Source of the DNA: an uncultured bacterium
GTDB lineage: Bacteria; Bacillota; Clostridia; Oscillospirales; Oscillospiraceae
Assembly: GCA_947643715.1 (NCBI GenBank)
Contig: CANRXB010000028.1
Coordinates: 1 to 33,232 of the forward strand
Reading direction: 5' to 3'
DNA length: 33,232 nucleotides
A program made the translations under genes and the position numbers. Shown one piece after another: positions 1 through 422 of the stretch (position 1 is the stretch's first letter; every line of letters begins with the position of its first letter). The notes below the pieces were generated by a model. That model did no database searches, was not told where the DNA came from, and worked only from the letters and a program-made list of their open reading frames with translations.

Positions 1-55
1 CCAGCCAGCCAGCCAGCCAGCCAGCCAGCCAGCCAGCCAGCCAGCCAGCCAGCCA
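1..55. repeat. CCAG tetranucleotide tandem repeat, about 13.75 copies
   Basis: Thirteen uninterrupted perfect copies of CCAG followed by CCA fill the first 55 bases, after which the sequence becomes ordinary coding DNA. The tract may continue beyond the window edge. It is in frame with the acyltransferase fragment that follows, where it reads as repeated Ser-Gln-Pro-Ala. A four-base unit gives the same four residues in rotated order in all three frames and never a stop, so changing the copy number shifts the downstream frame without stopping translation inside the tract. Short-repeat contraction and expansion by slipped-strand mispairing is the known phase-variation mechanism in other bacteria. 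That it operates here is inference, and an assembly artefact at a contig end is possible. Confidence 0.93.
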
Positions 56-422
56 CGCGGCGGCGCGCTCGATCCTGCGTTGGTGCTATACGATCCTCGT
101 CGTGGACCTGGGTTGGGTCCTGTTCCGCGCCGGTACGCTGTCTGACGCGATCGCCTACATCGGCAGCATGTTCGGTATCGTATCCGTCCGGACGGGCTAC
201 ACGGCCGCATCCTATCTCGACGGCTGGTCCCTCACGGTGCTCGCGATCGGGATCCTCTTTTCCATCGGGTTCCCGCAGAAAATGATGGGGGCGATCGCCG
301 CGAGGCTGGATTGGAACGTCGTCCTGGTCGTGCGGTACGCGTCCGTGCTGCTGCTCCTGCTGGCGTGTGCGCTGCGGATCGTGTCGGGCGCATACGATCC
401 GTTCATCTACTTCCAGTTCTGA
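3..422 (+). CDS. MBOAT family O-acyltransferase, C-terminal fragment
   Basis: This open frame runs from the window edge through the CCAG tract to a stop at 420-422. After the Ser-Gln-Pro-Ala repeats it continues with a hydrophobic helix containing LGWVLFRA, the characteristic C-terminal motif of AlgI/DltB-like membrane-bound O-acyltransferases. A second long helix and a final FIYFQF follow. These enzymes pass acyl groups, usually acetyl, across the membrane to a partner that modifies an extracellular polysaccharide. The catalytic His helix lies upstream, outside the window. The next gene, 15 bases downstream, is the expected AlgJ/AlgX-type partner, which supports the call. A repeat-encoded peptide is not usual for the family. 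The other two reading frames meet stops at 143-145 and 283-285, so a change in repeat number not divisible by three would truncate the last 45-95 residues. Confidence 0.8.
   Translation, partial: SQPASQPASQPASQPASHAAARSILRWCYTILVVDLGWVLFRAGTLSDAIAYIGSMFGIVSVRTGYTAASYLDGWSLTVLAIGILFSIGFPQKMMGAIAARLDWNVVLVVRYASVLLLLLACALRIVSGAYDPFIYFQF

Follow-up and report, generated by a model that had tools for sequence, protein, structure and literature searches.

A CCAG tract as a probable phase-variation switch in an MBOAT O-acyltransferase gene of a gut clostridium

The CCAG tract and its MBOAT gene

The window analysed here, a stretch of 33,232 nucleotides, is one contig (C28) of a 2.63 Mb genome in 93 contigs, and it begins within a perfect CCAG tract (positions 1-55, plus strand). 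With 13.75 units visible and no mismatch, this tract scores highest among all tandem repeats in the window (110, against 68 for the next). The frame open from 3 to 422 on the plus strand starts with codons of the tract itself and runs without a stop into the C-terminal part of an MBOAT O-acyltransferase gene, which ends in YDPFIYFQF with its stop codon at 420-422. This end covers positions 354-476 of a family profile (E-value 3.6e-24); Pfam or NCBIfam alone gave no match to it. The tract is stop-free in all three frames and encodes rotations of Ser-Gln-Pro-Ala (SQPA) in each. Translation of the two other frames reaches stop codons at 143-145 and 283-285 on the plus strand, and the off-frame products end 29 or 76 codons after the tract. 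As read from the sequence, gaining or losing a single unit puts the last 122 MBOAT residues into another frame. The sequence-only reading had given the same unit count, peptide repeat and off-frame stops, all of which were confirmed. Its claim that the tract is in frame with the MBOAT end also stands for the visible frame, while the true in-frame state depends on the true copy number, which is not assembled.

Searching the genome for (CCAG)5 gave matches at two contig ends only, those of C28 and of a second contig, C71. On its minus strand, C71 carries in order a nucleotidyltransferase gene, a CDP-glucose 4,6-dehydratase gene, the N-terminal half of an MBOAT gene (345 codons; PF03062, E-value 2.9e-28) and CAG(CCAG)13. 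The last of these is exactly 55 nt without mismatch at the contig start (C71:1-55, minus strand), and forms the upstream flank of the tract. When placed on a profile built from MBOAT homologues, the C71 half occupies positions 6-352 and the C28 half positions 354-476. We rest the join of the two contigs on these profile positions; a MAFFT alignment placed both halves poorly near the tract. Recovery of the upstream half, with a frame open through the tract, had been proposed as a check; the half was found on C71 and its frame joins the tract. On this evidence, the tract is inserted between the two halves with hardly any family residues lost.

The insertion point is 33 residues after the conserved histidine, where the His of TGIWHGASW aligns with that of GFWHGITW in DltB (6bug), and it falls in a loop that differs in length across 34 distinct homologues. 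This location and the hydrophilic peptide would also suit a flexible (SQPA)n linker loop whose length varies without use as a switch, with off-frame cells as rare losers. Passages of PMC2651432 suggest modulation of this sort for the GCAA tract in the middle of Haemophilus oafA. However, a four-base unit breaks the frame at two of three lengths.

An AlgX-like SGNH partner gene (438-1862, plus strand; PF16822, E-value 4.5e-17) follows 15 nt after the MBOAT stop codon. The same cluster continues on the plus strand with an NAD-dependent sugar epimerase/dehydratase (1954-2877; PF01370, E-value 2.6e-35) and an RfbC-like sugar 3,5-epimerase (2874-3476; PF00908, E-value 2.6e-51). Upstream of the MBOAT half, C71 encodes glycosyltransferases and an ABC-2 exporter. 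Both the PF03062 domain and the conserved histidine are present, as in the MBOAT type that works with an SGNH partner (AlgI/AlgX). Family membership and these neighbours, including the CDP-glucose dehydratase, suggest that the enzyme acts on a surface glycan. Two other assignments were rejected: DltB, for which the N-terminal half, scored alone, reached 151.7 bits with TIGR04091 against a cut-off of 375, and an OafA-like AT3 protein (PF01757), since the gene is an MBOAT; nine other genes of the genome match AT3. MBOAT and AT3 are two unrelated membrane acyltransferase families.

Elsewhere in the window, two adjoining genes at 8269-10365 on the minus strand look by eye like CobW-like GTPase genes, and one of them includes a long His-rich stretch. 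Three adjoining genes at 29805-33133 resemble, by eye, polyphosphate VTC-domain, DUF4956-like membrane and CotH-like proteins. The last 56 nt (33177-33232) match C2:112-167 with one mismatch, and on the C2 side this segment is preceded by junk-like homopolymers. With regard to a possible inverton, an inverted-repeat scan of C71 alone gave 10 imperfect inverted pairs (73-81%).

The sequence-only reading had also taken the break of the sequence at the tract as what a length-variable repeat would do to an assembly. This argument fell. One 55-nt sequence ends both C71 and C47 and begins C78, and another ends C30 and begins C57; there is no repeat at either place, and identity is lost at 56 nt for C71/C47 and C30/C57. 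We take the assembler overlap to be 55 because these non-repeat contig ends share exactly 55 nt as well; a pure tetranucleotide tract of at least 59 nt would then break the assembly graph whether it is variable or not. The possible tract lengths are 6+4n, with a minimum of 62 nt if the assembler k is 55, and only every third copy number (n = 15, 18, 21 and so on) keeps the MBOAT frame.

Junk-like homopolymers near other contig ends raise the question of whether the tract is itself an assembly artefact, or whether C71 and C28 are not adjacent. Against this, the pure tract at the two ends is the same and occurs at no other place in the genome, the gene parts encoded there complement each other on the profile, and polysaccharide genes lie on both contigs. 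We regard either possibility as very improbable.

Simple repeats in the O-acyltransferase genes of the genome

A Pfam search of the genome returned nine MBOAT matches, corresponding to eight genes (C30 and C57 hold one gene), and 11 AT3 matches, corresponding to nine genes, two of them split between contigs. Simple repeats are present in nine of these 17 O-acyltransferase genes (two of eight MBOAT and seven of nine AT3), and in eight of the nine a change of length would alter at least 30 residues. Besides the C71/C28 gene, with 55 nt of CCAG on each contig end, the second repeat-bearing MBOAT gene has a G11 run (C23); a G8 run in the MBOAT gene of C9 is below the threshold and was left out of the count. 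Three of the AT3 genes carry long tracts, namely AACC in C69/C36 (55 nt on each contig end), CAGGA in C73/C50 (55 and 85 nt) and AGTC in C67/C56b (59 and 55 nt), the last placed after nine codons from a start codon chosen by eye. The other four have homopolymers: G15 in front of the domain in C38, C15 in C13a, G13 in C13b and G10 in C56a, which may have little effect, being 15 codons before the stop. The four long tracts encode hydrophilic peptides (SQPA, NQPT, QDRTG and SQSV) and are stop-free in the three frames shown. Mono- and pentanucleotides that break the frame are thus found in the sister genes, and one of the tracts lies just after a start codon, where a linker is needless; a mere linker is, in our view, an unlikely account of the CCAG tract.

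Family matches flank the repeat in C71/C28, C23, C69/C36, C73/C50 and C13a (though weakly on the far side for C50 and C13a); in C56a, C56b and C38 they span the whole domain. The score of the C50 half is below the Pfam cut-off. A local AT3 profile built from relatives was a one-sequence model with no hits, hence the use of Pfam for the AT3 registers.

In C38 the frame is open through G15 into the AT3 domain, and the gene is in register. C23 is out of register, the upstream part covering profile positions 44-435 and the conserved end, in another frame, positions 445-476 (E-value 1.2e-7). C13a is also out of register, with an upstream match to Pfam positions 1-252 and an end in another frame at 273-324 whose E-value of 0.011 is below the Pfam cut-off. 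The downstream frame of C13b gave no family match, and this gene is probably out of register like C13a. Mixed registers are what a switch predicts, but sequencing error in long runs could also produce them, and the registers are uncertain in that assembled lengths of G/C runs of 10-15 can be wrong in short-read data.

The out-of-register state of C23 and C13a, and probably of C13b, is also what might be seen if these were decaying pseudogenes with repeats expanded without selection. Yet long open frames are kept apart from the tracts, family matches persist on both sides of the tract or over the whole domain, and C38 is in register. Decay, moreover, would not single out O-acyltransferases or pure tracts, and we give this explanation little credence.

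The background was scanned over 1,187,478 unique bases (45.1% of the genome, with 5,493 N), a sample that deliberately included the O-acyltransferase loci and saw contig ends only in part; other classes of repeat-bearing genes may exist in the other 55%. Homopolymers no farther than 600 nt from a contig end were set aside for 13 contigs (C1, C2, C11, C22, C41, C52, C58, C62, C63, C74, C79, C82 and C83). They mostly resemble sequencing junk, and the assembly quality is imperfect. In the scanned part, all four tetra- or pentanucleotide tracts of at least 55 nt lie within O-acyltransferase genes. Outside those genes it holds one G/C run of at least 10 away from contig ends (G11 in C47) and one 22-nt pentanucleotide repeat (C49), along with triplet repeats in C43 and C84 and an A9 run in C14. 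A rough Fisher test of the concentration of repeats in O-acyltransferase genes gives p of about 1e-14 to 1e-16, assuming one gene per kb and with an enriched sample.

The G11 run of C47 (C47:18591-18601) is in register in a CDP-glycerol glycerophosphotransferase (Glyphos_transf) gene and is perhaps a further switch. The C49 repeat (C49:9687-9708; TCCTA, 4.4 units) runs on the minus strand into AGGAGG just before an ATG, where ribosome binding could vary.

Relatives and CCAG tracts elsewhere

No repeat above threshold was found in 29 AT3 loci of relatives (29 of the 58 matches in a genus search of 41 other genomes), nor, in contrast to the window gene, in 29 MBOAT loci taken one per genome from 59 other genomes. 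AT3 matches number 0 to 4 in other genus members versus 11 here. Among 42 genomes of the genus, (CCAG)5 occurs in two, this genome and G016, and (AACC)5 in this genome only; the reversed control pattern for (AACC)5 is the same repeat, which makes that control uninformative.

In G016 the tracts lie outside genes, at four contig ends (L187:1-170, the ends of L188 and L189, and L190:1-215), and their minimum lengths range from 32 to 84 nt. On L188 only, a promoter-like TTGACA-16-TATGCT box is located 4 nt upstream of the tract. On the partner contigs, the tract is followed by a strong hairpin with a T run and then by two related genes; those of L190 have ATPase-domain matches just under Pfam cut-offs and are regulator-like by eye. 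With the repeat placed between a promoter and a terminator, this would be another type of switch.

More widely, a scan for (CCAG)10 across genome contigs gave at least 119 stretches, and the window's own genome may be absent from the matches listed. A layout of promoter, CCAG tract, hairpin with T run and signal-peptide-like gene was seen at L140:4839-4932 (plus strand), L087:1334-1399 (minus), L146:346-390 (plus) and L185:5482-5577 (minus), with promoters identified by scan and hairpins by folding in L140 and L087, and both by eye in L146 and L185. The hosts of this layout are Lachnospiraceae, Atopobium, Erysipelotrichaceae and Oscillospiraceae genomes. A promoter scan beside 129 CCAG tracts (both strands) gave 14 hits where about 4 were expected from the background of 109 in 7,380 random windows (1.5%), an excess that is suggestive only. 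Within coding sequence, a Lachnospiraceae contig (L082) starts with a CCAG tract in the reading frame of an AT3 domain, an independent parallel, and a 61-nt tract lies in frame within an HsdS-like gene (named by eye) of a Streptococcaceae MAG (L166:7618-7678).

A proposed switch in glycan O-acylation

Taken together, we consider it highly probable that the CCAG tract is a contingency (phase-variation) switch, one of the set of repeats in nine of the 17 O-acyltransferase genes. The phase-variable O-acyltransferase proposed by the sequence-only reading remains the best reading, resting now on the upstream frame that joins the tract and on the repeats in sister genes, with the argument from the contig break removed. 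A single assembly lies behind this reading, its tetra- and pentanucleotide tracts broken at contig ends. Slipped-strand mispairing at replication would add or remove CCAG units. One phase in three would give the full MBOAT, its SQPA repeats forming a flexible loop that separates two membrane segments, and in the other two the conserved MBOAT end would be lost, leaving a protein that is probably inactive. To judge from family and neighbours, the enzyme would carry acyl groups over the membrane and hand them to the adjoining AlgX-like SGNH partner, and the state of the switch would decide whether an ABC-exported surface glycan is O-acylated. Whether the sugar decorations of the cell are on or off would probably be a matter of chance.

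With somewhat less assurance, we favour a broader reading in which this Gram-positive gut clostridium possesses a repeat set for glycan O-acylation. It would comprise at least eight frame-breaking switches in MBOAT and AT3 genes, with mono-, tetra- and pentanucleotide tracts, and could give the surface glycans as many as 2^8 acylation patterns, so that slippage would set a combinatorial acyl code.

One known gene of this design is oafA of Haemophilus influenzae, an AT3 family member for which Fox 2005 is a cited reference. It encodes a lipooligosaccharide O-acetyltransferase with a phase-variable GCAA tract mid-gene, according to portions of PMC2651432 and PMC11868660, and is treated in an AT3 review (PMC9558356, in part). 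It resembles the C71/C28 gene in having a tetranucleotide repeat in the middle of an O-acyltransferase gene for a surface glycan, but it is a single AT3 gene with GCAA in a Gram-negative host, whereas here the gene is an MBOAT with CCAG in a Gram-positive one, and belongs to a set of nine. Nearly all other tetranucleotide tracts of H. influenzae lie at or just after the start codon, as sections of PMC2651432 state, and both positions, mid-gene and just after the start codon, occur in the present genome. AlgI/AlgX, PatA/PatB and DltB are MBOAT systems, AlgI and PatA having an SGNH partner (excerpts of PMC9558356); the window gene shares with them the MBOAT domain, the conserved histidine in a WHG motif and an adjoining AlgX-like gene.

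Our search of open-licence papers found no phase variation of an MBOAT and no repeat-based phase variation in clostridia. The mechanism is known, while the enzyme family, the host group and the concentration on one chemical step appear new. For the invertons of Clostridioides difficile and gut bacteria, phase variation of regulators and surface functions in clostridia is described in parts of PMC11868660 and PMC11892184; these switches act by DNA inversion, for example of promoters, in contrast to slippage in coding repeats. Surface switching of gut clostridia is discussed in those passages as DNA inversion, and slippery repeats, if the present reading is true, would be a second route, devoted to one chemical step. 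Short-read genomes break at such tracts, so that the trait can readily escape notice. Variants with oafA on gain protection against killing through acetylation, which also inhibits antibody production (PMC11868660, in part), and O-antigen acetylation affects phage interactions (PMC9558356, in part). If true, the reading would give a direct means of testing how a commensal changes the surface that it presents to immunity and phages.
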